Of a stretch of DNA of 29,442 nucleotides, positions 90-13,718 are shown piece after piece (position 1 is the stretch's first letter; each line of letters starts with the position of its first letter). The stretch covers positions 1 to 29,442 of IMG/VR virus record IMGVR_UViG_3300031951_000887. One strand, written 5' to 3'. A program made the translations under genes and the position numbers. The notes beneath the pieces are model-generated. The model searched no databases. It was not told where the DNA came from and saw only the letters and a list, made by a program, of their open reading frames with translations. The stretch comes from a virus.

Positions 90-3000
90 ATGGCATTTAA
101 CTTTCCAATCAATCCGATTGATGGTCAAACTCATAGCGAGACTGCATCTGACGGAACAATAATTACAGCCGTATACAAACTAGCTAAGAATGAATGGGAG
201 GTCTCTCGGGTCCTCCCCGCACCTACAACGCTTGTTGGTAATCCTGCCATTAGTGTCACTCCTAGTGCTGATGGACAGGTCATTACCTGGGATCAAGTAC
301 TAGGTAAGTGGGTAGCTAAATCACCAGCTGCTCAGACTGGTGGAGGAGGTGGGACGTTCGTTAAAGGCACACAAGCCGCTGCTGATACGTCTAACCCTCC
401 TCCTGGGTCTACACAGCCTCTCAGGCCTGGTATGCTGCAAACCACCCTTGAGAACCTGCATAAGGAACTAAAGGCATGGGATGGTACTAACTGGGCTGAG
501 GTGCTATCCGAAGATACAATTAAGCAGTGGATCTCAGCTGGCAGTTTATTTCGTGGGGTGACTAAAGAGGCTACACTTAACACCCTTCCTACACCTGCTA
601 CTGGCAACCGTGGTTACTACTACAGCTGGACTGGGAACCCTGGCTATGTAGTCAAGGCTGCTGACCCTTCCATTGGCACTGACCTTGTTGGTGAAGTCCT
701 ACAGGTCGGTGACTGGATTCAGAGCGATGGTGTTAAGTGGGTGCATGTCCCTGGTGACCTGCTGAGCAAACAGCGTTGGGACAGCCTGGGTAGCTTTGCC
801 CCTTGGTCTAACACCAGCTGGGAGAAGGGGTCAGTCGTTAGCTATCAGAAGTCTTTCTTCCGTGCCAATGCGCTGATCTCCCCTGGTGACCTGGCTCCTG
901 GTGACCCTGGCTCCAAGTGGACAGACATCACTCCTCTGCCTCACATGAAGCTGGAGGAGCTGTCTGACTGCCAACAGCTATCAACCGCTGCCGACATGCA
1001 GATTCCCACCTTTGATGCAATCAACAACGAGTGGGTGCCTAGGCAGCTTGGCATGGGTGACCTGAGCGATGTTAACGCTAACGTCATCAACCCAACCGAT
1101 GGTGCTGTCCTTCAATGGGATGATATCACCATGCAATGGGATGCTGCCAACAGCTTGTCCCTGCGCCTTGAAGACCTTGGGGACACTGGCCTGCTTGGTG
1201 GTGCCACTGAAGGCCAGGTTCCGATCTGGGATGACACGAATAATAACTGGAAACCTTTCACCCTCCCTGCTGGCAAGTTCCTTGGCTCGCTAGCGACACC
1301 ACCGCTGACAGGGAATGCCAGTGAGGTGTTCTATCAGAACGTTGCTGGAACGTTCCCCGTTGGTGCTACCGCTGCGGTGCCGTATGTAGTGGCGATGAAT
1401 CCAGTCCTACAGGCTGGGGCTCAACCTGATCCCGCCAATCCTGGTCAACCTCTGCGTAACTCCGGTGGTGTAGTTGCTCTGACTGCTGGCTGGATCTTCA
1501 GCTTCAACGGTACCAACTACTCAGTCAACAACACAACCAAGCTGATTGCCCGCATCAATGGTGGTGAGACCAGCCCCACGCAATGGGCAACTGGTGTAAC
1601 CCCTCCGATCACTGCTGTTACAGGTTCGACTGCCACCTTTGCCGTGGGTTTCTACCAGTGGAATGGAACAGCGTGGTCTCCTATTGCTAACTCACTGTCG
1701 AGCCTCTCTGATACGGCGGCGCTGGCTACTGCCACTGATGGCCAGATGGCGACGTGGGATGCAGCAAACAAACGCTGGATTCCCACCCATGCCCCCAATG
1801 AGCTTAACGATCTTGAAGATGTAAGGCTCGGCCCTCTTGCCGATGGTCAAGTCCTCAAGTTTGACCTTACCGCTAATGAGTGGCACAACTCAACGGTTGA
1901 TGGGTACACCAAGGCTCAAATAGATACCAAGATAAGCACCCTTGTTGTTGGCTTCGCTCACGGTGTTGCTGCCCAGTCAATCGTTCAAGACCCACCCACA
2001 GCGCCTGTAGCGGATGAGCTTTACATCGTTGGCACTGTTCCGACTGGGCTCTTCGCTACCCACCCCAATGAGCTTGCTGTATGGGATGGGACCAAGTGGA
2101 CCTTCTCTGCTGCCCAACCCAATGAGGCTCACCTCGTTGAAGATCAGTCAGCCACCTACGGCTGGTCTGGTACTGCTTGGGTAAAGGTTGCTTCCGCTGT
2201 TTCTGGTGGCACCAGTGCTCAGGCGGGCGTCGGTGAAATCGTCCCTTGGATCGGTAACACCTTCCCGACTACTGACTACCTGGAGTGCAAGGGCCAGGTG
2301 ATTGCGATTCCGACTTACTCGGACCTGCACAACGCCATTGGCAACAAGTACAACCCAGGTACAGCAGCTGATGGCACCAGCACCTTTGCGCTACCTGATC
2401 TGCGTGGTTACTTCCTGCGTGGTGACAAGACTGGGCTGACTGCCGGTACAGCACATCCCTGGACTACTGGTCTGCCTAAAGCTGGGTTTGGCACCAACAA
2501 CACAGGGGACCACAGCCACAGCTTCAAGCGATCCACGAACAACTTCTCAGGGGATGGCAAGTATCGGGATGGAAACCTGTCGTCGATCCAAGCAACTGGT
2601 GGTGGCGAAACGGTGTCACAAGGCATCGTGTCTGCCGGAGCCCACTCCCATACCGTCACTGGTGGTGATACTGAAACGGCACCTGATCACTTCGTTGTTA
2701 AGTGGCTGATCCGTTACAAGCCCATCAACGGTGGAGCAACAGGTAGCGCTGGACCAAAGGGCGACGCCACTCCCCTTGGTGAGGTCTGGCAGGTTGGTTC
2801 TATCCAGCAATCAATGCTGACTGAACCCCAGTGGGCCACGCTGCTTGGACCTGTAGAAGGTGCCAAGTGGGTGTTGGCTGATGGCCGTAATTGCACTGGC
2901 ACCAAGTTTGGGCAGATCACTGGTAAAACCAATCTCCCTGACTTGCGAGGTGCGTTCCTGCGGGCTGCTGGTCAGAACCGAAATGGATACAACAGATGGA

Positions 3001-3293
3001 ATGGTGGTGATGTTGGTCAGTGGTACGAAGACAGCACTGCGCTGCCTAAAACAGCGTTCACTACTAGCAGCTCTGGCGCCCACACGCACACTGCTAACCC
3101 AGAAGGCTACTACGCATCGAAATCAGGTAGCGGAACGTGGTCGATCGGCTCTGCGACGGTACATGAGGCACAGGATAACCGCATGACGCTGAACACCTCT
3201 AGTGCTGGCGCTCACACCCACACCATTGGTGGCGGTGATATCCAAACGGCTCCTGTTCACGTTGCTGTGAACGTGTTCATAAAGATTAATTGA
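90..3293 (+). CDS. Tail fibre with degenerate repeats and two tail-collar/HxH tip modules
   Basis: This 1067-residue protein is the probable receptor-binding fibre. Its N-terminal 75 residues resemble cyanomyovirus structural proteins. A degenerate unit of about 30 residues (LSD..., then DGQV..WD, then a Trp) recurs at about 58-76, 290-318, 322-352, 358-390, 535-567 and 572-600. Short WDGT.W/WNGT.W modules appear at about 130, 524, 665 and 692. The C-terminus has two phage tail-collar-type domains: about 712-876 (GEIVPWIGN, LPDLRGYFLRG) and about 895-1067 (LPDLRGAFLRA). Each carries two HxH motifs (H808/H810, H852/H854; H998/H1000, H1042/H1044). In T4 gp37, HxH motifs coordinate iron in the fibre tip. 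The first few hundred bases are AT-richer than the rest, which suggests a recent join. The protein is far longer than T7 gp17 (553) and shows no obvious gp17-type N-terminal tail-attachment domain, so how it attaches to the virion is unclear. Confidence 0.85.
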   Translation: MAFNFPINPIDGQTHSETASDGTIITAVYKLAKNEWEVSRVLPAPTTLVGNPAISVTPSADGQVITWDQVLGKWVAKSPAAQTGGGGGTFVKGTQAAADTSNPPPGSTQPLRPGMLQTTLENLHKELKAWDGTNWAEVLSEDTIKQWISAGSLFRGVTKEATLNTLPTPATGNRGYYYSWTGNPGYVVKAADPSIGTDLVGEVLQVGDWIQSDGVKWVHVPGDLLSKQRWDSLGSFAPWSNTSWEKGSVVSYQKSFFRANALISPGDLAPGDPGSKWTDITPLPHMKLEELSDCQQLSTAADMQIPTFDAINNEWVPRQLGMGDLSDVNANVINPTDGAVLQWDDITMQWDAANSLSLRLEDLGDTGLLGGATEGQVPIWDDTNNNWKPFTLPAGKFLGSLATPPLTGNASEVFYQNVAGTFPVGATAAVPYVVAMNPVLQAGAQPDPANPGQPLRNSGGVVALTAGWIFSFNGTNYSVNNTTKLIARINGGETSPTQWATGVTPPITAVTGSTATFAVGFYQWNGTAWSPIANSLSSLSDTAALATATDGQMATWDAANKRWIPTHAPNELNDLEDVRLGPLADGQVLKFDLTANEWHNSTVDGYTKAQIDTKISTLVVGFAHGVAAQSIVQDPPTAPVADELYIVGTVPTGLFATHPNELAVWDGTKWTFSAAQPNEAHLVEDQSATYGWSGTAWVKVASAVSGGTSAQAGVGEIVPWIGNTFPTTDYLECKGQVIAIPTYSDLHNAIGNKYNPGTAADGTSTFALPDLRGYFLRGDKTGLTAGTAHPWTTGLPKAGFGTNNTGDHSHSFKRSTNNFSGDGKYRDGNLSSIQATGGGETVSQGIVSAGAHSHTVTGGDTETAPDHFVVKWLIRYKPINGGATGSAGPKGDATPLGEVWQVGSIQQSMLTEPQWATLLGPVEGAKWVLADGRNCTGTKFGQITGKTNLPDLRGAFLRAAGQNRNGYNRWNGGDVGQWYEDSTALPKTAFTTSSSGAHTHTANPEGYYASKSGSGTWSIGSATVHEAQDNRMTLNTSSAGAHTHTIGGGDIQTAPVHVAVNVFIKIN

Positions 3294-3304
3294 CCTTCCA
3301 TGCT

Positions 3305-3886
3305 ATGTTTAACTGGTTCCGCCGATGGGCCATGCAGGAGACCTGGAAGCCAGTCGTGGGCTACGAGGGCCTGTACGAAGTCAGCGACGCTGGCCGCGTC
3401 CGGTCTCTTGGCAGGGCATACAGGATGCACAACTCTCACAGGCCCGAGGTAATCATGGATTGCCTTAAGCCAGTTCGCATCCTTAAGCCAGGCTTCAAGC
3501 CAAACGGTTACTGCCAGGTCATGCTCTATGGCCTGGATAAATCCAAATGGCAGCCGCTAGTCCACCGCTTGGTCCTTGAGGCATTTGTTGGCCCTGCCCC
3601 GGAAGGGATGGAGGCCAACCACATCAACGGCCAGCCGTTCGACAACAGGCTTTGCAACCTGGAGTGGACCACCCACAAGGAGAACATGGCCCATAGCCGG
3701 CAAGTGCTTGGTGCCATGCAGGGCGAGAAGAACCACAACGCCAAGCTCACAGCCGATTTGGTTCGCGAGCTGCGCCAGGCCAAGGCTGATGGTCTGCCTA
3801 TCTCTCCCATCGCCAATCGAATTGGCGTTTCAGTCGTTGCCGCTTGCAATGCAGCAAATGGCACGACCTGGAGGCACGTTGCCTAA
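3305..3886 (+). CDS. NUMOD4/HNH homing-type endonuclease
   Basis: This is a free-standing homing-type DNA endonuclease. A NUMOD4 DNA-binding motif lies near the N-terminus (ETWKPVVGYEGLYEVSD...GRVRSL). The HNH nuclease core follows (LVHRLVLEAFVG, then ANHINGQPFDNRLCNLEW), with the His-Asn and downstream Asn residues expected of the fold. A C-terminal helix-turn-helix-like segment (KLTADLVRELR...PIANRIGVS) probably contributes DNA recognition. It lies just downstream of the tail fibre, possibly overlapping it if translation starts at TTG 3290. ATG 3305 and ATG 3332 are also possible starts, the latter directly before NUMOD4, and none has a clear ribosome site. An 11-bp direct repeat (CCTTAAGCCAG at 3463 and 3481) produces a repeated LKP peptide. 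Such genes are usually selfish passengers; the true target is unknown. Confidence 0.88.
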   Translation: MFNWFRRWAMQETWKPVVGYEGLYEVSDAGRVRSLGRAYRMHNSHRPEVIMDCLKPVRILKPGFKPNGYCQVMLYGLDKSKWQPLVHRLVLEAFVGPAPEGMEANHINGQPFDNRLCNLEWTTHKENMAHSRQVLGAMQGEKNHNAKLTADLVRELRQAKADGLPISPIANRIGVSVVAACNAANGTTWRHVA

Positions 3887-4140
3887 TGCAAACCCCCCGC
3901 TGGCTGGTGGCATCGGTGGTGGGCGTTGTTGCTACCACCGCTGTTCTGGCGGTCAGCTGGGTTGGGGTCTGCACATTCGTGACGGGCCCTCAAATCTTCA
4001 AGGCTGCCATCGAGGGCAAGATCAAAGAAGAGCCCAAGGTCTGCGAGAACGTTGAAGACCGCGCCATCCAAATACTCACCGGACTGCTGGCCACCTTGCT
4101 TGGCCTGATGTCCAACCCACCCGCTGATCCAAACCCATGA
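3886..4140 (+). CDS. Small two-helix membrane protein, probable holin
   Basis: This 84-residue protein starts at an ATG overlapping the HNH stop (TAATG) and ends in an ATGA overlap with the endolysin. The N-terminal hydrophobic segment (about residues 7-33) and a second one (about 59-75) are separated by a charged loop containing KIKEEPK. Size, two membrane segments and direct coupling to the endolysin fit a class II-like holin that opens the inner membrane at lysis. No sequence family was recognised, so the call rests on context and topology. Two cysteines (residues 29 and 53) flank the loop. The first hydrophobic segment could alternatively be a signal anchor of a spanin-type protein. Confidence 0.6.
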   Translation: MQTPRWLVASVVGVVATTAVLAVSWVGVCTFVTGPQIFKAAIEGKIKEEPKVCENVEDRAIQILTGLLATLLGLMSNPPADPNP

Positions 4141-4874
4141 CCATCTCCGATCTGACCTTCACGCCTGAACGCTGGCGTCAGTTCTGGTCCAGCTTCAAGG
4201 GCGAGCCCCAGCAGCTAGCCGGCATCGAAGAGCTGCGTCAGCACATCGCCCAGTCCGACCCTGGCCTGCTGACTGAGGCAGCGTCATGGGTGGCCAACTT
4301 CCACAAGGAACAGCCCACGCCCGAGGGGCCGATCACCCCTGAGCTGATGCACCGCCTGACGGCCTACCCCGCCAGCAGCTTCAACGAGGCGTTCTGCACC
4401 AGCTTCAACAACATGCTGGCTGCCACTGGTTTTGACCAGCACCCGCAGGCCATGCAGATGCTGATGGCAAACCTCATGACCGAATCGGGCAACTTCGTCT
4501 GGATGAAGGAGATCGCTTCAGGCGACGCCTACGAGGGCCGCCATGACCTGGGCAACACCCAGCTGGGCGATGGCCGGCGTTTCAAGGGTTGCGGCCCCCT
4601 GCAGGTGACAGGCCGCGTTCACTTCCAGCAGTTCCATGACTGGCTGAAGGCCAACAAGGGGATCGACGACCCGCGCATCCTTAGCGAGGGCACGGCCTAT
4701 GTGGCGGACGCCTACCCGTTTGAGATCGCCATCAGCTGGATCCAGGGCAACCACCTGCTGGATGTATGCCTGAACCAGGGTTTCGATGCCTGCTGCCGGC
4801 GGATCAATGGCGGCACCAATGGCTGGCAGTCACGCCACGCCAACTACCAGCACTGCCAGCAGGTGATGGCCTGA
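4137..4874 (+). CDS. GH19 chitinase-like endolysin
   Basis: This 245-residue protein is a peptidoglycan hydrolase of the glycoside hydrolase family 19 / lysozyme-like fold. The catalytic glutamate region reads LMTESGNF (E116) and the second acidic residue lies in YEGRHDLGN (E133). The family signature before the active-site wall appears as FKGCGPLQVTGR (about 150-160), and RRINGGTNG at about 221-229 is also typical of phage GH19 endolysins. The usual RG in the KGRG element is CG here (C152). Residues 1-75 form an extra N-terminal region without a recognised family, possibly a cell-wall binding or regulatory part. No signal peptide is seen, so export would need the upstream holin-like protein. 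T7 instead uses an amidase (gp3.5). Confidence 0.88.
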   Translation: MTISDLTFTPERWRQFWSSFKGEPQQLAGIEELRQHIAQSDPGLLTEAASWVANFHKEQPTPEGPITPELMHRLTAYPASSFNEAFCTSFNNMLAATGFDQHPQAMQMLMANLMTESGNFVWMKEIASGDAYEGRHDLGNTQLGDGRRFKGCGPLQVTGRVHFQQFHDWLKANKGIDDPRILSEGTAYVADAYPFEIAISWIQGNHLLDVCLNQGFDACCRRINGGTNGWQSRHANYQHCQQVMA

Positions 4875-4969
4875 TGCCTGACCTCATCCCCCTGGTGACG
4901 TTCATGCTGGTGATGACCCTGTTGATTTTGACCGCTGTGCTGTTCGATGAGCTGAGGCCCCATGACTGA
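4874..4969 (+). CDS. 31-residue membrane peptide in the lysis cassette
   Basis: The ATG overlaps the endolysin stop by one base (TGATG) and the gene ends in the start region of the next one. The peptide is one hydrophobic helix (residues about 4-24, PLVTFMLVMTLLILTAVLF) followed by an acidic/polar tail ending DELRPHD. It has no recognised family. Its position suggests an accessory lysis factor, such as a small holin, antiholin or i-spanin-like peptide. The tight spacing on both sides supports real translation; the function is inference. Confidence 0.55.
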   Translation: MPDLIPLVTFMLVMTLLILTAVLFDELRPHD

Positions 4970-5225
4970 CCTCTCCCCCGCCGCCCAGGCGGTGCTGGAC
5001 CAAGCCATTTACAAAGGGCCCGAGCTTGAAAAGCGTGTAGCCGCCGCCCTGCGAGCTGCTGCGGATCAGGTGGTGCCAGAGCAAAGTGAGCCACCCTGCG
5101 GAGAAGGTGAGCCGTGGCCCCAGAGCTATCAATTGATGGCCGATTCTAAATGGGAGGAACGGCAGAAAACTCGCGCCGAACTCCTCTCCATCGCCGCCGA
5201 GCTGGAGGGTAATGGCCAAGCGTGA
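4962..5225 (+). CDS. Conserved-looking small protein of unknown function
   Basis: This 87-residue protein has an ATG eight bases inside the end of the preceding small gene. It is helical and charged, with an alanine-rich segment (RVAAALRAAADQV) and a closing helix (TRAELLSIAAELEG). Small proteins with this LRAAAD...ELLAIAAELE pattern are common in picocyanobacteria and their phages, but no function is known to me. It overlaps the next gene by 14 bases, indicating one transcript. Confidence 0.6.
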   Translation: MTDLSPAAQAVLDQAIYKGPELEKRVAAALRAAADQVVPEQSEPPCGEGEPWPQSYQLMADSKWEERQKTRAELLSIAAELEGNGQA

Positions 5226-5535
5226 CAAGCTGGTCCTCAGCGCCCACCAGTTCATCGAGACCAGCCGGGACATCAACGGCAGGTACTTCATCGCCTACTC
5301 CGGTGGGGCCAGCCTCTTCATCCGTGAGGTGAAAGACCTGCGGCGGTTCCTCAAGATCGCCACCGGCATCCCGATGAGGGAAAGCCTGGAGTCCTGGCTG
5401 GCCAGCTTGGCTGGCATGGACGCAGCCAGACAAAAGCCCCTCGCAAAGGAGGGGCTGAGTGATGAGCTGCTGGCCACAGGGTTCGGGCCGGAGGTCCACG
5501 ACGTTGACAACGAGAACACCCGCACTGTCGTCTAG
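5212..5535 (+). CDS. Small protein of unknown function
   Basis: This is a 107-residue soluble protein. It begins with a basic segment (MAKRDKLV) and contains an aromatic β-like stretch (GRYFIAYSGGASLFI) and an amphipathic helix (LRRFLKIATG). The C-terminus is acidic and ends ENTRTVV. No family was recognised. It is coupled to the previous gene by overlap, and a spacer with regulatory-looking sequence follows, so it probably ends the lysis-region transcript. It is not an integrase: the length is too short and the conserved R-H-R-Y residues are not visible. Confidence 0.6.
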   Translation: MAKRDKLVLSAHQFIETSRDINGRYFIAYSGGASLFIREVKDLRRFLKIATGIPMRESLESWLASLAGMDAARQKPLAKEGLSDELLATGFGPEVHDVDNENTRTVV

Positions 5536-5550
5536 GCCACATTCCTGCAT

Positions 5551-5569
5551 GGTTACAATTCGTATAACC
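5551..5569. promoter_or_regulatory. Inverted repeat GGTTA-N9-TAACC, operator-like, overlapping a -10-like TATAAC
   Basis: A perfect 5-bp inverted repeat lies 17 bases before the start codon of the 49-codon gene, in an AT-rich island. It contains TATAAC (5563-5568), a plausible -10 element, and TACAAT (5554-5559), another. No good -35 lies at the proper distance; the only TTGACA is at 5504-5509, too far upstream. A host-type promoter with an overlapping repressor site is one reading. Confidence 0.35.
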
Positions 5570-5585
5570 CATGCCGGAGGTCGCC

Positions 5586-5735
5586 ATGACCACTGCGCAG
5601 AGAGAAGTCAGAGAGATCCGTAAGCAGCTTGTTGAATCCGGGGCCGACCCCTACGAGGTAGCGGCCATGGCTCTCGAGCAGGCTGAGCGCTACCGGCGGC
5701 TGCTGGCCCAGGTAACCCGCCCCCACCGCTTGTAA
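5586..5735 (+). CDS. 49-residue helical protein before the RNA polymerase region
   Basis: A GGAGG ribosome site (5577-5581) lies four bases before the ATG, one of the best ribosome sites in the window. The peptide is a charged helix pair (MTTAQREVREIRKQLVESGA, then DPYEVAAMALEQAERYRRLL). It has no recognised family. With a strong ribosome site, its own putative promoter and a position just before the phage RNA polymerase, it may be an early regulatory or host-takeover protein; that is inference. Confidence 0.6.
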   Translation: MTTAQREVREIRKQLVESGADPYEVAAMALEQAERYRRLLAQVTRPHRL

Positions 5736-5834
5736 TGTGCCTGCGTCCACTGACCACAGAATTCTGCAGCCGCGTGTCCGCACGCTGCCGCATGCTGCAT
5801 GTGGGTGATCCTCGAGATCCATTGCAGTGACTGA

Positions 5835-5873
5835 GGGGGCATGGCGGAATTGGCATACGCAGCGGACTTAAAA
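5835..5873 (+). other. 5' half of a tRNA-Leu(UAA), attachment-site-like fragment
   Basis: This stretch reads as the 5' part of a leucine tRNA: acceptor strand GGGGGCA (5835-5841), D-arm GCGG-AATTGGCATACG-CAGC, anticodon-stem strand GCGGA (5862-5866) and loop CTTAAAA with anticodon TAA at 5869-5871. The similarity stops there: the expected TCCGC is AGCGC, and no variable arm, T-arm (GGTTCGA) or closing acceptor strand follows. It is therefore not a functional tRNA. P-SSP7-type cyanophages carry an exact match of about 42 bp to host tRNA-Leu as a putative attP near their integrase and RNA polymerase. This fragment has the same position and extent, but no integrase is seen. Confidence 0.75.
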
Positions 5874-5939
5874 AGCGCTGCCCACCTTCCCACCACTGCA
5901 GAACACTCAGCGGATCCAGTGTCTGACTGCAGCATGTGA
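5841..5939 (+). CDS. 32-residue ORF reading through the tRNA-Leu fragment, overlapping the RNA polymerase start
   Basis: The ATG lies inside the tRNA-like sequence and the G-run of the acceptor strand (AGGGGG, 5834-5839) could act as its ribosome site. The peptide starts MAELAYAADLKSA, the typical artefactual translation of a tRNA-Leu gene. It then continues open for 19 more codons of non-tRNA sequence and stops at TGA 5937-5939, forming a GTGA overlap with GTG 5936 of the RNA polymerase. That junction type recurs at real gene boundaries here (9457, 11297, 20658). It could be a translational coupling leader or could be chance. Confidence 0.3.
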   Translation: MAELAYAADLKSAAHLPTTAEHSADPVSDCSM

Positions 5940-8311
5940 CCCCTGGCCAACCTGTGCAGGGGTGGGGTGGAATCGGTGCTGAAAGCACGCATACATGCGC
6001 GTTGAACACCGAAAACGGCGCGTCCACACCTGTGGAATCCCTGCAGCAGCAGAGAGAAGCCAGGGAGGAGCGCCGCGCCCAAGAGCGAGCCAGGGACCAG
6101 CAGCAGAAGCTCAGGGCTCGAGGCAGGGAGAGCCGCACCACCTACGGCAACGCCCTGCTGCAGCGCTACGCCGAGACCGTGGGTTGTTCGATTGATGCCC
6201 TGCTGATTGACCTGTTCCACAACCCGGGCAAGGCCGGCCCGCACTTTGCCCATTGGCCACTGCTGCTGCACTTCAGCTCTGGTGGCCCACGCTCAATCGC
6301 AGCCATCACGTTGAGCGTGGTGATTGATGGCATCAGCACCAGCCCGCTCAGGGCATCGCTGGCCAATGCCATCGGCCGTGCACTGCAGGATGAGCTCAAG
6401 GCCACCCGTCTGCATGACGAGAAGGGCGGCGTCCTCCTGGCCCAGCTGCGCAAGAGGTTCGGCCGCAAGACCGTCAGCGACAAGCTCTTGGGTCAGCTGA
6501 ACGTGGACCCCAGCGGTTGGGACCTGAACGATCGCCGCGGCCTGGGCAACCTGCTGCTTGAGGTGATTGCAGCCAACACCGATCTGATTGCCTTCCGCAA
6601 GGTCGGGAAGGAGTCGGTGGTGGCAACTGAGGCAACGCTTGAGCTGATCAAGCTCAACCCACCGCTGCCCCTGCTGGCTCGGGACCTGCCATCACTGCTG
6701 CCGCCGGTGCCGTGGGAAGGGCCGACACGTGGCACCAAGAACCTGGTGGGCAGCCGCGCACCGATGGACCGCGGCCATCTCACCGCCCGCAGCTTGACCA
6801 CTGCCATCCAGGTGGTGAACCGGATTGAGCAGCAGCAGCTGGTGGTGGATCCCTGGATGGTGGAGGTGCAGCGCGAGGCCTGGGACTGCAACCTCCCTGT
6901 CGTGTTCCCCGTCAGACGAGAACCAGAAACGCCATGGGTGATGCCTGCGGAAGCGGGCCTGCGGTTGCGCACGGAAGAAGCCATCCGTCAGGGGGAGGAG
7001 GTGGCGGGCCGGCCGATCTGGCTGAAGCACGACATGGACTTCCGCGGCCGGTTGTATTGCTGTAGCCGCATGGCTGGCCACCAGGGCCCTGACCACCAGA
7101 AGGCGCTGATCTCCTTCTCCCAGCGGGAACGCATGGATGACGAGGCCGTGGATGCGTTGCTGGCTGCCGCGGCCGGCCACTACGGCCTGGGCCACTGCAG
7201 CTGGAGTGAACGCGCTCAGTGGGGCAGGGCTCACCTGGATCAGATGGCCGTCACCGCCGCCAACCCTCTGGATCGGTTCGACCTGTGGAAATCAGCCGAT
7301 GACCCCTGGCAATACCTGCAGGCGTGCAAGGCCATCGCTGACTTCCTCGAGGACGAGGCCACACCAATCGGCTGCCCGGTCCGGTACGACCAGACCGCCA
7401 GTGGGATGGGGATCATCGGGGCGCTGACCCGCGATGAGCTGCTCTGCCGCCGCACCAACATGATCGGCGGCACCCGGTCTGATCTCTATGCGGTGATCGC
7501 TGAGGCGGTGCTGAACCAGCTGCGGATGCACCTGGACTCCTGGGATCCGTATGAGGTGCGGATGGCTGAGTTCTGGCTGAAGCTCCCCATCAGCCGCAGC
7601 TTGGCCAAGGGTCCGACCATGACCATGGTCTATGGCGCCCGTCACTTCGGCATCGTTGAGCAGCTGGTGGCCTGGCTGCAGGAACACAACCCTGATGTGC
7701 CTGTTGCCTACTGGGAGAAGGAGTACACCCGGCCGGCGCAGTACATGGCCCGGGTGTTCAACGAGGTGCTGGGCCAGGAGATGCGCAGCTGCGTGGCCCT
7801 GCAGAAGTGGCTGCGTGATGTCAGCAAGGCCTGCGTGAAGAAGCAGCAGCGCATCCAGTGGGTGAGCCCGATGGGGTTCCCGCTGGCCTTTGGCGCACAG
7901 CTGGAGGAGAAGCAGCGGACCACAACCAAGATCCATGGTGCGCGGCGCTGGGCACGGGTGGATGCCGACGTTGAGCCGGGTGAGCTGAGTGCCCGTGCCA
8001 CCAACCGCGGCATCACGGCCAACACCATCCACGCCTTTGACGGGGCCCTGGTGCAGGCCATGGTGCTCAGAAGTGGGATGGTCGATGCCCCCCTGCTCAC
8101 CAACCACGATTGCTTCGCCACCATCCCGTCCCGCGCTAGGTGGCTGCACCATGAACTGCTGCTCAACCTGAGGCAGCTGTACCTGCCCGACTGGCTGGCT
8201 GACCTGCGGGTGGAAATTGGCCGGAACGCAGGCGTACACCTGCCACACCCACCGATTGTTGGCGATCTTCGTGAGGCGATGATCGGCGAAAACCCTTACT
8301 GCTTCTGCTGA
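5936..8311 (+). CDS. T7-like single-subunit RNA polymerase
   Basis: This 791-residue protein transcribes the phage middle/late genes. Landmarks match T7 RNA polymerase (883 residues): DFRGRLYCCSRM (TxxGR-like motif), motif A YDQTASGMGIIGALTRD with catalytic Asp485 (T7 D537), motif B SLAKGPTMTMVYG with Lys558 and Tyr566 (T7 K631 and Y639, same spacing of 8), and motif C LLTNHDCFATIP with Asp725 (T7 D812). It ends in ...NPYCFC, unlike the FAFA end of T7. There is no ATG in the N-terminal region, so the start is GTG 5936 (GTGA-coupled to the small ORF above), TTG 6002 or GTG 6032; the first 33 residues are low-confidence. A perfect 7-bp hairpin at 5939-5963 falls in the start region. It is shorter than T7, mainly in the N-terminal domain. 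Confidence 0.95.
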   Translation: MTPGQPVQGWGGIGAESTHTCALNTENGASTPVESLQQQREAREERRAQERARDQQQKLRARGRESRTTYGNALLQRYAETVGCSIDALLIDLFHNPGKAGPHFAHWPLLLHFSSGGPRSIAAITLSVVIDGISTSPLRASLANAIGRALQDELKATRLHDEKGGVLLAQLRKRFGRKTVSDKLLGQLNVDPSGWDLNDRRGLGNLLLEVIAANTDLIAFRKVGKESVVATEATLELIKLNPPLPLLARDLPSLLPPVPWEGPTRGTKNLVGSRAPMDRGHLTARSLTTAIQVVNRIEQQQLVVDPWMVEVQREAWDCNLPVVFPVRREPETPWVMPAEAGLRLRTEEAIRQGEEVAGRPIWLKHDMDFRGRLYCCSRMAGHQGPDHQKALISFSQRERMDDEAVDALLAAAAGHYGLGHCSWSERAQWGRAHLDQMAVTAANPLDRFDLWKSADDPWQYLQACKAIADFLEDEATPIGCPVRYDQTASGMGIIGALTRDELLCRRTNMIGGTRSDLYAVIAEAVLNQLRMHLDSWDPYEVRMAEFWLKLPISRSLAKGPTMTMVYGARHFGIVEQLVAWLQEHNPDVPVAYWEKEYTRPAQYMARVFNEVLGQEMRSCVALQKWLRDVSKACVKKQQRIQWVSPMGFPLAFGAQLEEKQRTTTKIHGARRWARVDADVEPGELSARATNRGITANTIHAFDGALVQAMVLRSGMVDAPLLTNHDCFATIPSRARWLHHELLLNLRQLYLPDWLADLRVEIGRNAGVHLPHPPIVGDLREAMIGENPYCFC
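5939..5963 (+). promoter_or_regulatory. Hairpin at the RNA polymerase translation start
   Basis: ACCCCTG (5939-5945) pairs perfectly with CAGGGGT (5957-5963) around an 11-base loop, directly after the putative GTG start. If translation begins at 5936 the hairpin would lie in the initiation region and could dampen it; if it begins at 6002 or 6032 the hairpin lies in the leader. Either way it is placed to influence polymerase expression. Confidence 0.4.
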
Positions 8312-8405: not shown

Positions 8406-9095
8406 ATGCCGCGCGAACTCATCGTCTCCCCCAGGGGTGAAGCGCTCTGGGCCAAGGTCCTGGGCGAGCCTGTCGCCTACGAGGACAACCCCAAGGCCTG
8501 GTCCGTCTCCCTGCTGCTGGACCCCAGCGATCCCGACACCATTGCCTTCGTGGAACGGCTCGAGGCAGTCTTCGAGGACTTCCACGGACCCAAGGCCAAG
8601 ATCGCTGCCAACGGCTGGCCGTTCGCTGACGAGACCACCAAGGACGAGAAGGGCCGGCCGGTACCCACCGGCAAGATCAAGTTCAACTTCAAGCGGAAGC
8701 AGGAGCTCCCCCGCGGTGGCTTCAAGGACGCACCGCTGGTGGTGGACAGCAAGAAAAACCTCTGGCCCCAGGACAAGCTGATCGGCAACGGCAGCAAGAT
8801 CAAGGTCGCCTTCTCCCCCTGGAAGTGGGAAGGACCGAGCGGCAAGGGCATGAGCCTCGAGCTCGAATCCATCCAGGTACTCGAGCTGGTCAGCTACGAC
8901 CCCGAGGGTTCGGTTGATCTCTTCGCGGAAGAGGACGGCTACGTGCTGGACACCCCCGCAGCGCAGGCACCCTTCCAGCAGGAAGTGGTGGTGACTGAGG
9001 ACGCGCCCACCGGCTTCGCTGCACAGCTGCGCGCCCGCGCGGCTGAGGTGCAGGCAGAGGCTGCCCAGGTGATGGCCGACGAAGTGCCGTTCTGA
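8406..9095 (+). CDS. Single-stranded DNA-binding protein, gp2.5-like
   Basis: This 229-residue protein has about the length of T7 gp2.5 (232) and is encoded directly after the RNA polymerase, the usual place in T7-like cyanophages. It would coat single-stranded DNA at the fork and recruit replication proteins. The body is rich in β-type and basic segments (KIKFNFKRKQEL, SKIKVAFSPWKW, LELESIQVLELVSY). The C-terminus is acidic and ends in Phe (ADEVPF), as gp2.5 does; there the last aromatic residue is needed for protein contacts. ATG 8406 is chosen over GTG 8382 because the extension falls in the hairpin region and the N-terminus MPRELIVSPRG is more natural; no clear ribosome site is seen. It overlaps the RusA gene by one base. 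Confidence 0.8.
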   Translation: MPRELIVSPRGEALWAKVLGEPVAYEDNPKAWSVSLLLDPSDPDTIAFVERLEAVFEDFHGPKAKIAANGWPFADETTKDEKGRPVPTGKIKFNFKRKQELPRGGFKDAPLVVDSKKNLWPQDKLIGNGSKIKVAFSPWKWEGPSGKGMSLELESIQVLELVSYDPEGSVDLFAEEDGYVLDTPAAQAPFQQEVVVTEDAPTGFAAQLRARAAEVQAEAAQVMADEVPF

Positions 9096-9460
9096 TGAAC
9101 AGCGCGGAGTTCCTCTTTCGGGTGCCGCTGATGTCCAAGGCTCGGCCGCGGTCTGCACCCGGTGGCGGCCGGCCTTACATGCCAGCCACCTACGTGAACT
9201 GGAAGGCCAACCTCCGCGGGCAGATGGGTGAGTGGTGGACCCTGCCACCACTTGATCGCATCAACGCCCTGGTTCTCACCTTCAACGGTCCTGCCCGTGG
9301 CGACCTGGACAACATGGCCGGCGCCGTGCTCGATGCCGGCAATGGCCTGATCTGGGTCGATGACCGGGTGAAGGTGATGCCCACCATCGCAGCCCGCTGG
9401 GTTCATGCCAAGCCAGCCAACTCTTCCATCTTCATGAAACTCTTTTGGGAGAACAAGTGA
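9095..9460 (+). CDS. RusA-family Holliday junction resolvase
   Basis: This 121-residue protein cuts four-way junctions during recombination or before packaging. The family signature is clear: basic/aromatic N-terminal strand FRVPLMSKARPR, then GDLDNMAGAVLDAGNGLIWVDD, with acidic residues D70, D72 and D89/D90 corresponding to the catalytic D70, D72 and D91 of E. coli RusA. Length is normal for the family (about 120). It replaces the unrelated T7 gp3 endonuclease I, which occupies the similar position in T7 and many cyanophages. It is coupled to SSB upstream (TGATG) and to the zinc-ribbon gene downstream (GTGA). Confidence 0.88.
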   Translation: MNSAEFLFRVPLMSKARPRSAPGGGRPYMPATYVNWKANLRGQMGEWWTLPPLDRINALVLTFNGPARGDLDNMAGAVLDAGNGLIWVDDRVKVMPTIAARWVHAKPANSSIFMKLFWENK

Positions 9461-10023
9461 ATTGCCCCCACTGCAACCACCCCGAATCGCGGGTGGCTGA
9501 GACCAGACCATCGGCCGACTTTGACAAGCGGGTGCGGCAGTGCCGCAACTGCGCCAAGACATTCACCACCCTTGAGCGCGTGGCGGTGTACGCCGGCCGC
9601 GCTGCTGGCTACATCGAGTCCGGCCAGCCTGAGCTGGAGGAAGAGCCGGACCCCGAGTCAGCACCGCTGACCGTCACCACTGCCACCACCACACCCTTCC
9701 ATCCTGTGGTGGTGGGTGACGAGCTGAACTCCATGCCGATGGAGGTGCGTCAGCTGCTGGTGGAGTGGTGGAACAACAGCCGGCGCAGCAAGCACAAGTC
9801 CTCTGCGGCCTGGACTCGCAGGGCATGGCTGCTCACTGTGACCCGCGTGTCGCTGCTGCCCCCGTGGCAACAGCTGGCACTGGCCGCCGCTGGTGTTGAG
9901 CAGGGTTGGCAGACCCTCAAGCCTGAGTACATCAAGGACGTGTCACCACCGGCGGAGGCCGGCCTGGTGCCCAAGTCCGCCGCAATGCAGGAAGCGATTA
10001 GCTCATGGAAGAAGATCGCCTGA
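9457..10023 (+). CDS. NrdR-like zinc-ribbon protein
   Basis: The first 40 residues closely resemble the zinc ribbon of the ribonucleotide-reductase repressor NrdR: MNCPHCNHPESRVAETRP, then RQCRNCAKTFTTLERV, with C3, C6, C29 and C32 as metal ligands. The ATP-cone that follows in NrdR is absent; instead there is an acidic linker and a helical C-terminal region (about 95-160, RQLLVEWWNNSRRSK...WLLTVTRVSLLPPW). A DNA-binding regulator is likely. GTG 9457 is preferred over TTG 9445 because GGGAGAA (9447-9453) gives it a ribosome site and it forms a GTGA overlap with RusA. The targets are unknown; no nrd gene is in the window. Confidence 0.72.
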   Translation: MNCPHCNHPESRVAETRPSADFDKRVRQCRNCAKTFTTLERVAVYAGRAAGYIESGQPELEEEPDPESAPLTVTTATTTPFHPVVVGDELNSMPMEVRQLLVEWWNNSRRSKHKSSAAWTRRAWLLTVTRVSLLPPWQQLALAAAGVEQGWQTLKPEYIKDVSPPAEAGLVPKSAAMQEAISSWKKIA

Positions 10024-10541
10024 CGATTGAATCCTTTCTCTCTGTTGCAGAGATGATCGCCGCGCAGCTGCGGATTAAGGAAGCAGATCGCTGGTCTGCC
10101 CAGATCTGCCAGCTCAAGTACGTCTCTTTCCTTTCTGAGTTCCCCGAGGTCACTGATCGGCAACTGCTCTGGTCTGCTGAGCAGTGGCTGCAGGGAACAG
10201 GAGGCAAGGACTTCCTGCGTTACCCCACCTGGAGAGAACTGATGGCACCGCTGTACCGCAGTGAGAACGGCCTGGCCAACCGCACGTGGGGGTTCCGCCC
10301 TGACCTGCCGGCCATGTGCAAGCCCACTGCTGACCAGCTGCGCCAGCTGCCCGGCTCACCCCGGCCACTGGCAGCAGCACCGGACCCGCACAACGCTGAG
10401 GCCTACATGCCGTTTCAGCCGGCCTGCCTCGCTGCCCTCCCGCCAGGGCATGACGAGGAGACCGGTCTGACTATGGCGAAGTGGGCTGACTACCTCAACT
10501 TCCTGGCACAGGAGGAGGAGAACCGTGAAGCCACTGATTGA
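10005..10541 (+). CDS. 178-residue protein of unknown function in the replication region
   Basis: No family was recognised. The N-terminal half is helical (TIESFLSVAEMIAAQLRI, then DRWSAQICQLKYVSFLSEFP), followed by tryptophan-rich segments (LLWSAEQWLQG, RYPTWRELMAPLYR) and a proline-rich C-terminal part. It overlaps the zinc-ribbon gene by 19 bases and the next gene by 17. It sits where T7-like phages normally encode primase-helicase and DNA polymerase, but has none of their motifs (no Walker A, no polymerase motif A/C). A role in recruiting host replication proteins is possible but speculative. Confidence 0.65.
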   Translation: MEEDRLTIESFLSVAEMIAAQLRIKEADRWSAQICQLKYVSFLSEFPEVTDRQLLWSAEQWLQGTGGKDFLRYPTWRELMAPLYRSENGLANRTWGFRPDLPAMCKPTADQLRQLPGSPRPLAAAPDPHNAEAYMPFQPACLAALPPGHDEETGLTMAKWADYLNFLAQEEENREATD

Positions 10542-10734
10542 GGCCCATGAGCTGCGGGACATCCTCGAGCGTGGCCTGGCGGGTGGGCTCTGGTCTATCG
10601 CTGACTTCAACGCCAAGGCAGCCAACCCGGTCCTGCCAAGCCGTGAGTTCCTTGAGGATCACCCCGAGTTCATGGACATGACGTTCAGGGACATGAAGGC
10701 CTACAGCAGCCGCCAGCACAGTGTGCGCCTATGA
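10525..10734 (+). CDS. Small protein of unknown function
   Basis: This 69-residue product has a GTG start preceded by GGAGGAGGAG (10511-10520), a very strong ribosome site. The sequence is mixed helical (PLIEAHELRDILERGLAGG) with an acidic middle (FLEDHPEFMDM). No family was recognised. It ends in an ATGA overlap with the next short gene, and the operon continues unbroken. Confidence 0.6.
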   Translation: MKPLIEAHELRDILERGLAGGLWSIADFNAKAANPVLPSREFLEDHPEFMDMTFRDMKAYSSRQHSVRL

Positions 10735-10904
10735 GCTGGTCGGCACTTGTTAAAGGCCAGGCCGTGAAGTTCTACTCAGGCAGTGGCTGGAAGAGCGGCG
10801 TAATTGCAACCGTCTACGACAACAGCTGCAGCGTTCTATGGACTGCTGGCAGCACCCAAAAAATCACGAGGATCTATGACTTCCGCAACATCAAAACACA
10901 ATGA
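10731..10904 (+). CDS. 57-residue SH3/Tudor-like small protein
   Basis: The ATG overlaps the previous stop (ATGA). The peptide is strand-rich (KGQAVKFYSGSGWKSGVIAT, then VYDNSCSVLW...KITRIYDFRNI), a pattern reminiscent of a small SH3-like β-barrel with the KG..V and W.SG.I turns. This is a fold guess from pattern only. It overlaps the following gene by 29 bases in another frame. Confidence 0.5.
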   Translation: MSWSALVKGQAVKFYSGSGWKSGVIATVYDNSCSVLWTAGSTQKITRIYDFRNIKTQ

Positions 10905-11067
10905 AGAGCGTCAGCTTGATGTCACAGTCGGCACCATCAAGCGGCGGCTGATCATGGCTTACGACTGCTACAACGCGGCCGAGAAGGACGGTGCCAGGAA
11001 TGCTGCCTCCTACTGGGACGGCTACATCCGCGCCCTGCAGCACGTCCTTGAGCAGGAGCACGAGTAA
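10876..11067 (+). CDS. Small helical protein of unknown function
   Basis: This is a 63-residue protein. ATG 10876 has GAGG (10868-10871) four bases upstream; a longer reading from 10804 has no ATG or ribosome site and would overlap the preceding gene more. The sequence is an N-terminal polar stretch followed by two helices (GTIKRRLIMAYDCYNAAEKD, WDGYIRALQHVLEQEHE). It ends in a TAATG overlap with the next gene. No family was recognised. Confidence 0.5.
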   Translation: MTSATSKHNEERQLDVTVGTIKRRLIMAYDCYNAAEKDGARNAASYWDGYIRALQHVLEQEHE

Positions 11068-11300
11068 TGCCGTTTGAGGTCCGCTACAACATCCCGCCCT
11101 CCATGGAGGAGACGGCCCCCAACCTGGGGGAAGGTGTCAGCCGGCCGGTGGCTGGTGCACGCACCAGGCTGTATGACCTGCTGGTGAAGCAGCCCGGCCT
11201 GCCCGTCATGAAGGTGGCCATGCGTGCCGAAAGCCCCAAGCGGGCAGTGCTCTACGCCAGCAACTGCTGGCCCAACTCCAACGTCCTGGTGGTGAAGTGA
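11067..11300 (+). CDS. Small protein of unknown function
   Basis: This 77-residue protein is coupled at both ends (TAATG before, GTGA after). It has a proline-rich N-terminal half and a C-terminal segment PVMKVAMRAESPKRAVLYAS that could form a strand-helix unit. An inverted repeat CTGGTGC-AC-GCACCAG at 11152-11167 lies inside the gene. No family was recognised. Confidence 0.55.
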   Translation: MPFEVRYNIPPSMEETAPNLGEGVSRPVAGARTRLYDLLVKQPGLPVMKVAMRAESPKRAVLYASNCWPNSNVLVVK

Positions 11301-11506
11301 AGCTGCTTGACAACCTGATCCAGCTGTACTGGTCCCTGGGGGAATACAGCATCGACGACAAGCGCCGCATGAAGGCGGTGCTGCTTGAGCTGGCCCAGGA
11401 GATCCGCACCTGGGCGCCTGACGAGGGGCAGGCCCGGATCTGCTACCTGGCCATCAACGAAGTCGCTGACCGCATTGTGAGGGAGAGCAATGAAAGCGCT
11501 GATTGA
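11297..11506 (+). CDS. Small helical protein of unknown function
   Basis: This 69-residue protein starts at GTG overlapping the previous stop. It is almost wholly helical and amphipathic (LLDNLIQLYWSLGEY, DDKRRMKAVLLELAQEIR, ICYLAINEVADRIVRES). It overlaps the exonuclease start by 17 bases, so the two are translated from the same message. No family was recognised. Confidence 0.55.
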   Translation: MKLLDNLIQLYWSLGEYSIDDKRRMKAVLLELAQEIRTWAPDEGQARICYLAINEVADRIVRESNESAD

Positions 11507-12230
11507 CGCTGAGTTCTACCTGTACCGCGCCGCAGCGGGCAGTGAGTATGAAGCCGAGTGGGGGCCAGATGACTGGACCTATGTCTGCCGGCATGGCGAT
11601 GCCCGGGCCAGCTTCCAGGAAGTCATCAATGAGTTCCTCGAGGTGGTGCCCGACCACCAGCCGGTGATGGTGTTCGGCGACAGCGCCAGCTTCCGCTACT
11701 CGGTCTGGCCGAAGTACAAGGGCAACCGGAAGAAGTACCGCAAGCCGGCCGGCTACTCAGCTCTCAAGGAGTGGGTGGTTCAAGCCGCTGACGCCCGGGG
11801 CTGGCAGGTTGCCACCCTCCCCGCTGTGGAAGGTGACGACGTGCTGGGTCTCCTCGCCGAGGAAGGCGATGTGATCATCAGTGGTGACAAGGACATGCTC
11901 ACCTTGCCGGGCCTGCACCTGCGCAATGGGGAGATCCTTGAGCAGAGCAGGCTGGATGCAGATCGGGCCTTCTACGCCCAGGTGCTGATCGGTGATGCCA
12001 GCGACAACTATCCCGGCTGTCCCGGCTACGGCCCAGTTGCAGCTGAGCGAGCTCTGGCTGGTGCGGCAAATGAGGATGAGATGTGGGATGAGGTCTTGAG
12101 GGCCTACCTCAAGAAGGCGCTCACCGAGCGGTACGCCATCACCCAGGCCCGTTGTGCTCGCATCCTCAGGCCCGGGGAGTATGACCACGATCGTGGTGTG
12201 CCGATCCTCTGGAAGCCACCGGTAGCCTGA
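11490..12230 (+). CDS. 5'-3' exonuclease (gp6-like, FEN family)
   Basis: This 246-residue metal-dependent nuclease would degrade host DNA and remove RNA primers. FEN-family motifs in order: LIDAEFYLYRAA (first metal Asp near residue 6), VFGDSASFRYSVWPKYKGNRKKYRKP (substrate-gripping basic helix), VEGDDVLG, ISGDKDMLTL, and the helix-three-turn region GDASDNYPGCPGYGPVAAERAL. T7 gp6 is 300 residues; the C-terminal part is shorter here. GGAGAG precedes the ATG. The gene closes the replication module, immediately before the head genes, as in cyanophages. Confidence 0.9.
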   Translation: MKALIDAEFYLYRAAAGSEYEAEWGPDDWTYVCRHGDARASFQEVINEFLEVVPDHQPVMVFGDSASFRYSVWPKYKGNRKKYRKPAGYSALKEWVVQAADARGWQVATLPAVEGDDVLGLLAEEGDVIISGDKDMLTLPGLHLRNGEILEQSRLDADRAFYAQVLIGDASDNYPGCPGYGPVAAERALAGAANEDEMWDEVLRAYLKKALTERYAITQARCARILRPGEYDHDRGVPILWKPPVA

Positions 12231-12239
12231 GGGTTGTTA

Positions 12240-12251
12240 TGCACAGGTGCA
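12240..12251. repeat. 12-bp near-palindrome copy 1 (TGCACAGGTGCA)
   Basis: This is the reverse complement of TGCACCTGTGCA, which recurs exactly at 17476 and 20911. This copy lies in the short gap after the exonuclease, directly before the GTG start of the first head-region gene; its AGG(TG) could also act as that gene's ribosome site. The half sites TGCAC/GTGCA are separated by two bases. Confidence 0.6.
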
Positions 12252-12443
12252 GTGGTGCCGTTCCCTCGGTTGTCAGAGCAGCTGATTGCAGCGATGGCAG
12301 CTCAGTTCCCAGAGCGTGCTGCTGACATCGACTGGACAGAGAAGGAGGTTTGGTTCAAGGCCGGCCAGGTGTCTGTAGTGCGCTGGCTGGCTACCAAGCT
12401 GGAAGAGCAGGAAGAAGGTGCCTTTGTGCTGGAGGTGGACTGA
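12252..12443 (+). CDS. Small conserved protein before the head genes
   Basis: This is a 63-residue protein starting at GTG 12252 (or 12255); an upstream TTG 12234 would add six residues. The sequence (FPRLSEQLIAAMAAQFPERA, then EVWFKAGQVSVVRWLATKLE) fits a small protein often seen upstream of the portal in cyanopodoviruses, with an aromatic WFKAGQ.SVV core. Function unknown. It ends in a TGATG overlap with the next gene. Confidence 0.6.
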   Translation: MVPFPRLSEQLIAAMAAQFPERAADIDWTEKEVWFKAGQVSVVRWLATKLEEQEEGAFVLEVD

Positions 12444-12862
12444 TGTGCATGGGAGGTGGTGGCGTTCAAGGCGCCAAGATCAACAAGCACGCACCTGAGC
12501 GGAAGAAAGCCAGCAAGCAGCTCAACAAAGTCGTCAAGGCGATCAACCGGATCACTGGCGACGAGCTCATGAAGGAGGGCGTCAAGGCTGACGACACCCC
12601 CCTGCTCGCTGCACAGCAACTGCTGCACAGTTCCAACGCCATGCTGAGCGGGACGCTGGATCGTGCCACCCAGCTGCAGACCGCCGCGGCCAACAGCCAG
12701 GCCATGCTCAGTCAGAACGCACTGCAGATGGCTGCGTTGGTGGGGCCACCGCCACCGGAGAAGAGCGCAGAGAAGGTGGTGGTGGGCAAGGCCCGTGGAG
12801 TGGAGACTGAATCCGATCGCAACCGCAGGAGTCTGCGGATTGACCTGAACACCGGGACCTGA
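12443..12862 (+). CDS. MCMGGGG small head-region protein
   Basis: This is a 139-residue protein. The N-terminus MCMGGGG and the C-terminal RNRRSLRIDLNTGT resemble small proteins encoded next to the portal in many podoviruses, where a Met-Cys-Gly-rich start and RRSLRI ending are typical. The middle is helical (KKASKQLNKVVKAINRI, LLHSSNAMLSGTLDRATQLQ). The role is probably structural or assembly related; family knowledge is thin. ATG 12443 follows the preceding stop with one-base overlap; longer readings overlap that gene and have no ribosome site. Confidence 0.65.
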   Translation: MCMGGGGVQGAKINKHAPERKKASKQLNKVVKAINRITGDELMKEGVKADDTPLLAAQQLLHSSNAMLSGTLDRATQLQTAAANSQAMLSQNALQMAALVGPPPPEKSAEKVVVGKARGVETESDRNRRSLRIDLNTGT

Positions 12863-12864
12863 AC

Positions 12865-13716
12865 ATGGCTAAGAACAAGGGCGGAGGCAGCAAGGCAGCA
12901 GCACCGGCAAAGTCCAGCGGGGGTGGCCTTGGCTCCCAGGTGAAGTCCGCTGGTTCGATCCTCACCAAGAACGAAGCGCTGAAGATCGCGGAGTCCACCG
13001 GCAAGGCCGTGGCTCAGGTGATGGCCCGTGCCCAGAACAATGGCCAGGGCCTGGGTTCAAGCCTGGTCAACAACTACAACCGGGGCACGCTCGGCCCGAA
13101 CGGCAGCAACGTCACCAACTTTGGTGGCGTACCCATTGGTATGGGGCCAGGTGTTGGCGGTGCTGCAACCAAGGCAATCCAGCAGCTGCAAGCCCTGGAG
13201 GGCCTGCGGATGGGGCAGGGCCAGGTGTACATGGGCAGCACCACCACCACTACGCCAGGCCAGCAGCAAAGGGGTGTGAACGATGGGTACAGCTCTACCC
13301 CTGGCAGCACCGTCTACAACCCGATCGTGGTGCCCAGGGGCTATGTCGCTGCAGCACCCAAGGCCGCGGCAGCAGCGGCAGCAGCAACACCTGCAGCCAC
13401 TGGCCCTGTTGGCAACTGGGAGAACTCGGTCAACAACTCCAACCAGGAGCTGATCAACTCCATCAATGCTCAGATCGCGGCCAACTCCACCCAGGCCGAG
13501 CTCTACATGGGGCAGATCAATGACCTGATGAAGTCGATGCAGGGCGCGAACCTGCAGTCGATCACCCCATACGCCACCACCACCAGCGTTGCCCCCGCTT
13601 CTGGCGCTCAGATCACGCAAGCCATCACGGCACGGAAGAAGCCGGTCAACACCGACCTGTCGATCAGCTCATTGGTGGGTGATCTGGCCGGCACCGGGCT
13701 CAACATCGGGATCTGA
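12865..13716 (+). CDS. Low-complexity virion-type protein before the portal (gp7.3 position)
   Basis: This 283-residue protein is rich in Gly, Ala, Asn, Gln and Ser. It has a basic start (MAKNKGGGSKAAAPAKSSGG), an Asn/Gly region at about 55-105, an alanine run at about 165-178 and a threonine/alanine C-terminal part. Composition resembles proteins that are carried in the virion or form flexible tail parts. Position directly before the portal equals that of T7 gp7.3, a virion protein needed for adsorption/tail assembly, but no homology can be claimed. It is separated from the previous gene by two bases. Confidence 0.6.
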   Translation: MAKNKGGGSKAAAPAKSSGGGLGSQVKSAGSILTKNEALKIAESTGKAVAQVMARAQNNGQGLGSSLVNNYNRGTLGPNGSNVTNFGGVPIGMGPGVGGAATKAIQQLQALEGLRMGQGQVYMGSTTTTTPGQQQRGVNDGYSSTPGSTVYNPIVVPRGYVAAAPKAAAAAAAATPAATGPVGNWENSVNNSNQELINSINAQIAANSTQAELYMGQINDLMKSMQGANLQSITPYATTTSVAPASGAQITQAITARKKPVNTDLSISSLVGDLAGTGLNIGI

Positions 13717-13718
13717 CC

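Follow-up and report, generated by a model that had tools for sequence, protein, structure and literature searches.

When a fragment of phage DNA carries the front half of a host tRNA gene next to its RNA polymerase gene, and no integrase is in sight, a simple question arises: is this a working attachment site, and if so, where is the enzyme that uses it? The window considered here is the entire analysed stretch of 29,442 bases, and the half gene lies in its left part. We argue that the element is an attP and that the integrase resides elsewhere in the same genome; we would put the probability of this reading at roughly 0.88. We place the phage among the freshwater T7-like cyanophages, as a relative of S-SRP02, within what is called below the type-B clade; the site itself would then be an attP of the ordinary kind in an unusual arrangement, with int and attP split apart.

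The tRNA-Leu core and its host counterparts

The core occupies positions 5835-5873 on the plus strand (GGGGGCATGGCGGAATTGGCATACGCAGCGGACTTAAAA) and matches, at 37 of 39 positions and in the sense orientation, nucleotides 1-39 of the picocyanobacterial tRNA-Leu(UAA); its 3' end takes in the anticodon-loop bases CTTAAAA, and its length falls within the approximately 39-44 bp taken up by the 5' half of tRNA-Leu in cyanobacteria. The BLAST match to tRNA-Leu spans 49 bp at 87.8% identity (E 3e-12 against the upstream region, 1e-10 against the whole window), and no other stretch of the 29,442 bases is tRNA-like. ARAGORN and Rfam called no tRNA in the window, as would be expected for half a gene. The first-pass annotation had described an attP-like 5' half of tRNA-Leu(UAA) that diverges after the anticodon loop, and for the core this description is borne out; the remainder of the interval that it had assigned (5835-5939), from 5874 to 5939, is not tRNA and contains an attP flank and one conserved box. 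The core ends 158 bp before the gene of the T7-like RNA polymerase (RNAP; GTG at 6032), and in 41 loci, the window among them, the distance from the core to the aligned RNAP start is 146-196 bp.

The comparison with picocyanobacterial tRNA-Leu genes that the same annotation had proposed was carried out on one genome per bacterial species. The search pattern had to allow GGGAGC, as without it no genome was matched; complete tRNA-Leu genes of the core's kind were then found in 72 genomes, nearly all of them picocyanobacteria (Cyanobium, Synechococcus, Prochlorococcus and relatives). The best matches reach 37/39; they come from 13 genomes, among them Synechococcus WH 5701 and Cyanobium usitatum. 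Both mismatches are in the D-loop, where the phage has GGCATACGC and every host has GGTAGACGC; the phage variant was seen in 0 of the 72 genomes of this one-per-species scan. Hence, none of the scanned genomes offers a perfect match to the core, and the true host may be unsampled. The cores found at the same place in other phages come closer (39/39 in G004, 38/39 in G011). The D-loop difference should not damage the rebuilt gene, because a chimera of the window's 5' half and a host 3' half is still called as tRNA-Leu(taa), its folding energy being unchanged for hosts of the GGGGGC type.

The apparent absence of a recombinase, also claimed at first pass, is real as far as the record goes: Phage_integrase (PF00589) has no match anywhere in the 29,442 bases, and 14 of 14 control genomes were positive. 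The record, however, is a fragment without a terminal repeat, so that this absence says nothing about the full genome.

Genome plans and integrases among the relatives

A search of IMG/VR with the single RNAP sequence of the window found no relatives; a search with an RNAP profile found 321, and the integrase, terL, MarR, lysin and tRNA piece were mapped on the best 80 of these 321. Two genome plans became apparent. In type A, which is that of S-SRP02, MarR, int, attP and RNAP are contiguous on one strand, with terL on the opposite strand. In type B, the block that comprises terL, the early genes, MarR and int has the reverse orientation, and the tRNA half with attP remains beside RNAP. The window RNAP is 45-66% identical to the family, and its nearest relatives, at 58-66%, are of type B; in the RNAP tree it groups with the phages in which terL shares the strand of RNAP and int does not, the type-B clade (30 rows) having an SH-aLRT value of 100 and the set of five rows that includes the window a value of 99. 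A single change from A to B suffices on this tree. In the outgroup G014, a distant relative, MarR, int and RNAP are adjacent, which suggests that type A is ancestral.

The gene order of the window is that of the type-B phage G007, where terL and hyp11 are followed by tail fibre, holin, lysin, small ORF, attP and RNAP. The correspondence holds for positions 90-8311 of the window and 8406-14922 of G007, with lysin and o5212 on the other strand in G007. In G007, the genes that come before the tail fibre homologue (8406-10700) are hyp11, terL, the early genes, MarR and the integrase. As the window starts at the tail fibre, both terL and int would fall outside it.

Each of the eight type-B records with sufficient upstream coverage proved, in whole-record searches and annotation, to encode one intact tyrosine integrase, and this gene runs opposite to RNAP. 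The catalytic residues R..K..HxxR..W..Y of these enzymes are conserved. Six of the records have the tRNA-Leu core, and in these 6.6-10.2 kb separate attP from the integrase gene on the opposite strand (Table 1); S38-C3 and G010 are type-B int carriers without this core. The comparison suggests that the attP of the window seems orphaned owing to the combination of an inverted module and an incomplete record. An ancestral inversion of the segment from terL through the early genes and MarR to int would have separated int from attP, which stayed by RNAP; in the phage studied here, int would be expected on the minus strand, roughly 7-10 kb upstream of attP and past the left end of the fragment. We infer that int is encoded in the missing part of the phage genome and that its attP is active. 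An integrase directly adjacent to the site, which the first-pass annotation had named as the finding that would make it a plain attP, is not what the relatives have: their int is in the genome, yet distant.

The same comparison bears on two other readings that had been put forward. The fragment could be a relic, decaying after the loss of the integrase, as the lack of an integrase in the 29.4 kb present and the two differences from all sampled hosts might indicate. Yet all eight far-reaching type-B records carry int; phages that carry int share the very same D-loop variant, and their cores likewise differ from those of the hosts. Moreover, the core is on average 95% identical to those of the type-B relatives, as against about 61-63% where the flanks are least conserved, and both box A and the crossover flank of 8 bp (see below) are kept, which makes a relic unlikely. 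Alternatively, the site could be used in trans by a recombinase of another phage or of the host, given that tRNA-Leu is an attB common to several groups of T7-like cyanophages; this we consider very improbable, since every sufficiently long relative of the same plan has its own integrase and since integration of S-TIP37 was shown experimentally to require both attP and the phage's own int (PMC8776855). Both proposals founder on the intact integrases of the relatives together with the conserved boxes that flank the core in the window.

Flanks, boxes and neighbouring genes

Across 38 distinct att regions, a conserved block precedes the core and three boxes follow it at near-fixed spacing; the window keeps all of these (Table 1). 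The eight bases next to the core, AGCGCTGC, have a mean identity of 93% to nine type-B relatives and of 33% to 24 type-A phages. Together with GCAGCG inside the core they form, across the anticodon loop, an inverted repeat of 6 bp, which would match the expectation for paired core sites of an integrase. On the upstream side, the last 30 bp are 73% identical to type B, as against about 51-54% for random pairs; the conserved block there is possibly a left arm or a promoter. Box A is the top match of the window (21.1 bits) to a motif trained on other phages.

Table 1. Features of the window around the half tRNA gene, and positions of the integrase in type-B relatives with the tRNA-Leu core
Record	Feature	Position	Strand	Remarks
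Window	Tail collar fibre	90..3293	+	Pfam Collar; left edge of the fragment
Window	Endolysin, GH19-like	4137..4874	+	PHROG 9506; in the tail fibre-holin-lysin block moved beside attP, as in G007
Window	Small ORF, 54 aa	5571..5735	+	Between terL/hyp11 and attP in type-B phages; found by tblastn in most type-B loci
Window	Upstream block	5807..5825	+	Family consensus about AATCCCTGAGATCCCTTGC; column conservation at -30..-12 in 38 distinct attP regions
Window	Crossover flank AGCGCTGC	5874..5881	+	Non-tRNA side of the crossover; specific to type-B phages
Window	Box A, CCCACCACTGCAGAACA	5889..5905	+	Fixed 16 bases past the core; same place in relatives
Window	Box B, CTGTGCAGGGGTGGGGTGGAATC	5951..5974	+	Inverted relative of box A; conserved alignment block
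Window	Box C, TCCACACCTGTGGAA	6023..6037	+	Palindrome-like; overlaps the probable RNAP GTG start; conserved in types A and B
Window	T7-like phage RNA polymerase, 759 aa	6032..8311	+	PHROG 414, E 4e-111
G007, G009	Integrase	10.2 kb from attP, upstream	opposite RNAP strand	Near-identical phages
G011	Integrase	8.9 kb from attP	opposite RNAP strand	
G017	Integrase	8.1 kb from attP	opposite RNAP strand	
L286	Integrase	8.1 kb from attP	opposite RNAP strand	
L284	Integrase	6.6 kb from attP	opposite RNAP strand	

The function of the boxes is a separate matter. Boxes A-C were considered as arm sites of the integrase, and this idea was weakened by a genome-wide motif scan: phages of this group have a similar palindrome-like motif (about TGCACCNNTGCAGA) in other gaps between genes as well, one instance lying ahead of the capsid gene, so that the boxes may serve regulation and not be arms for the integrase. 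The motif sites are at 5889-6037 and 12235-12251 in the window and at 6029, 16390, 23137 and 27237 in L029, and the recurrent motif is a candidate phage promoter or operator. As to the neighbouring genes, neither the window nor the annotation of S-SRP02 showed a gene for a DNA polymerase. The S-SRP02 gene named DNA polymerase I encodes 246 aa (L029, 22389-23129), and the matches of its window homologue (11490-12230) are limited to 5'-3' exonuclease domains.

The position of the stretch within the RNAP leader, with conserved boxes downstream, is also what might be expected if it gave rise to a tRNA-derived RNA or to a leader RNA of the polymerase gene, a third proposal of the first-pass annotation. 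But there is no promoter match, the predicted fold is no better than those of shuffled sequences (z -0.12), and in sister phages the same spot is occupied by a tRNA-Met half, a replacement that fits target switching and not a conserved RNA; we deem this proposal extremely improbable.

Integration, target switching and known systems

Under the attP reading, a tyrosine integrase encoded by the distant gene would recombine attP with the tRNA-Leu(UAA) gene of the host, with the crossover in the anticodon loop. Integration would leave a rebuilt tRNA gene behind the phage DNA and, because attP holds the 5' half and RNAP is next on the same strand, would place RNAP behind the host tRNA-Leu promoter. 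A probable snapshot of such an event is seen in a relative, a contig of 5.4 kb (L009/L027, IMGVR_UViG_3300028114_000993, positions 1-1600). Here, 84 bp of non-phage DNA precede the tRNA half, 127 bp including this half are 99.2% identical to the tRNA-Leu locus of Cyanobium usitatum, and a TTTAGGAT element is found nine bases before the tRNA, within the Cyanobium-matching DNA. Past the anticodon loop come the phage boxes and then a polymerase gene that shares 66% identity with that of S-SRP02, the phage to which the genes of this contig are closest. The D-loop is of the host version, as expected at a junction where the host supplies the 5' half. The polymerase gene is cut at about 430 residues and abruptly joined to the lysin/terL region, which may be due to a deletion or a misassembly. 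The contig is probably a captured integration junction; it is a single short one, and a misassembly at the 43-bp shared sequence is possible. A scan for more attL junctions returned phage-type upstream regions only, apart from this contig, and a search for attR, that is, a full tRNA-Leu in phage context, yielded none, the tRNA-Leu context in the two contigs found being host-like.

Several further contigs deserve mention. Two phage-like contigs of the group (L115, L168) sit in GTDB bins that carry the labels Sphingomonadaceae and Rhodobacteraceae. In a Prochlorococcus single-cell genome (L164, 2715-3825), a tRNA-Leu 5' half located 1 kb before the complete gene would be the footprint of a small inserted element. 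One contig of 43.7 kb (L281 and L295, IMGVR_UViG_3300035703_000158) contains two attP-RNAP starts, with GGTATACGC and GGCATACGC, and is perhaps a merger of two strains.

The slot beside RNAP is fixed, with the target tRNA switched repeatedly: a tRNA-Met 5' half replaces that of tRNA-Leu at the same slot in L059, L063, L066, L073, L089 and L108, other relatives have longer copies of tRNA-Thr, tRNA-Leu or tRNA-Met, and on the RNAP tree the tRNA-Leu core alternates between present and absent about ten times. In some type-B phages (L042-L051, L062, L071, L080 and S38-C3), no tRNA half is recognisable beside RNAP; int is present where that region is covered. Nearly complete tRNA-Thr genes are seen at the slot on the opposite strand in L099, L052, L056 and L100. 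In a different T7-like group (L258-L264), int, a tRNA-Leu 5' half and RNAP occur together, and a host-like CTAGGAT element immediately precedes the tRNA half, as though it were a phage-borne promoter for the rebuilt tRNA.

It can be tentatively envisaged that integration acts as a promoter switch, such that the integrated copy expresses the polymerase and starts the lytic programme from the chromosome; we regard this as possible, with considerable doubt. If true, it would explain why T7-like cyanophages integrate without forming stable lysogens. The failure to find the phage D-loop in any of the 72 genomes fits rare or short-lived integration. The fixed tRNA 5' half before the polymerase gene and the probable natural junction make it a testable hypothesis that integration rewires polymerase expression, and this bears on the unexplained integration without lysogeny in such phages. 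A literature search on displaced attP sites or promoter capture by a polymerase gene found nothing directly relevant. Several points weigh against the attP reading itself: the incomplete record does not show the phage's own integrase, the match is 37/39, whereas the published marine attPs are described as perfect, boxes A-C are possibly regulatory, and the junction is seen in one short contig that also has the abrupt join within its polymerase gene.

Among the known systems, the tRNA-dependent lysogeny of mycobacteriophages (PMC10865867) resembles the scheme proposed here in that a tyrosine integrase acts in a tRNA gene, but in that system the shared sequence is only about 10 bp long and no tRNA is restored, whereas the window carries 39 bp and a full tRNA-Leu would be rebuilt. 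Stopalavirus S38C3 (AP013548) has the type-B architecture and an RNAP 51% identical to that of the window, but no tRNA fragment was found beside its RNAP with a set of 78 tRNAs. S-SRP02 (MW822601) has the core at the same position, the same boxes, and homologous RNAP, SSB, RusA, NrdR, exonuclease and virion genes; it differs in that its int, encoded on the plus strand, lies 1.35 kb upstream of attP (type A) and in that the core is followed by ACCG instead of AGCGCTGC.

The closest functional precedents are P-SSP7 and S-TIP37 (Shitrit et al. 2021, PMC8776855). In S-TIP37, the 39-bp first half of tRNA-Leu is a functional attP, with the host tRNA-Leu as the target, and P-SSP7 integrates at a site of the same kind, the junctions having been detected. 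The parallel with P-SSP7 drawn at first pass is apt: the same half tRNA lies there between integrase and RNAP, on the RNAP strand and just upstream of RNAP. Unlike the window, where the host match is imperfect and int would lie apart across the inverted terL/early block, these two phages have attP directly downstream of int. An integrase gene normally has its attP as a neighbour, and when T7-like cyanophages were surveyed in the published work, attP was sought directly downstream of int, a rule by which an entire clade of freshwater T7-like cyanophages would be missed.
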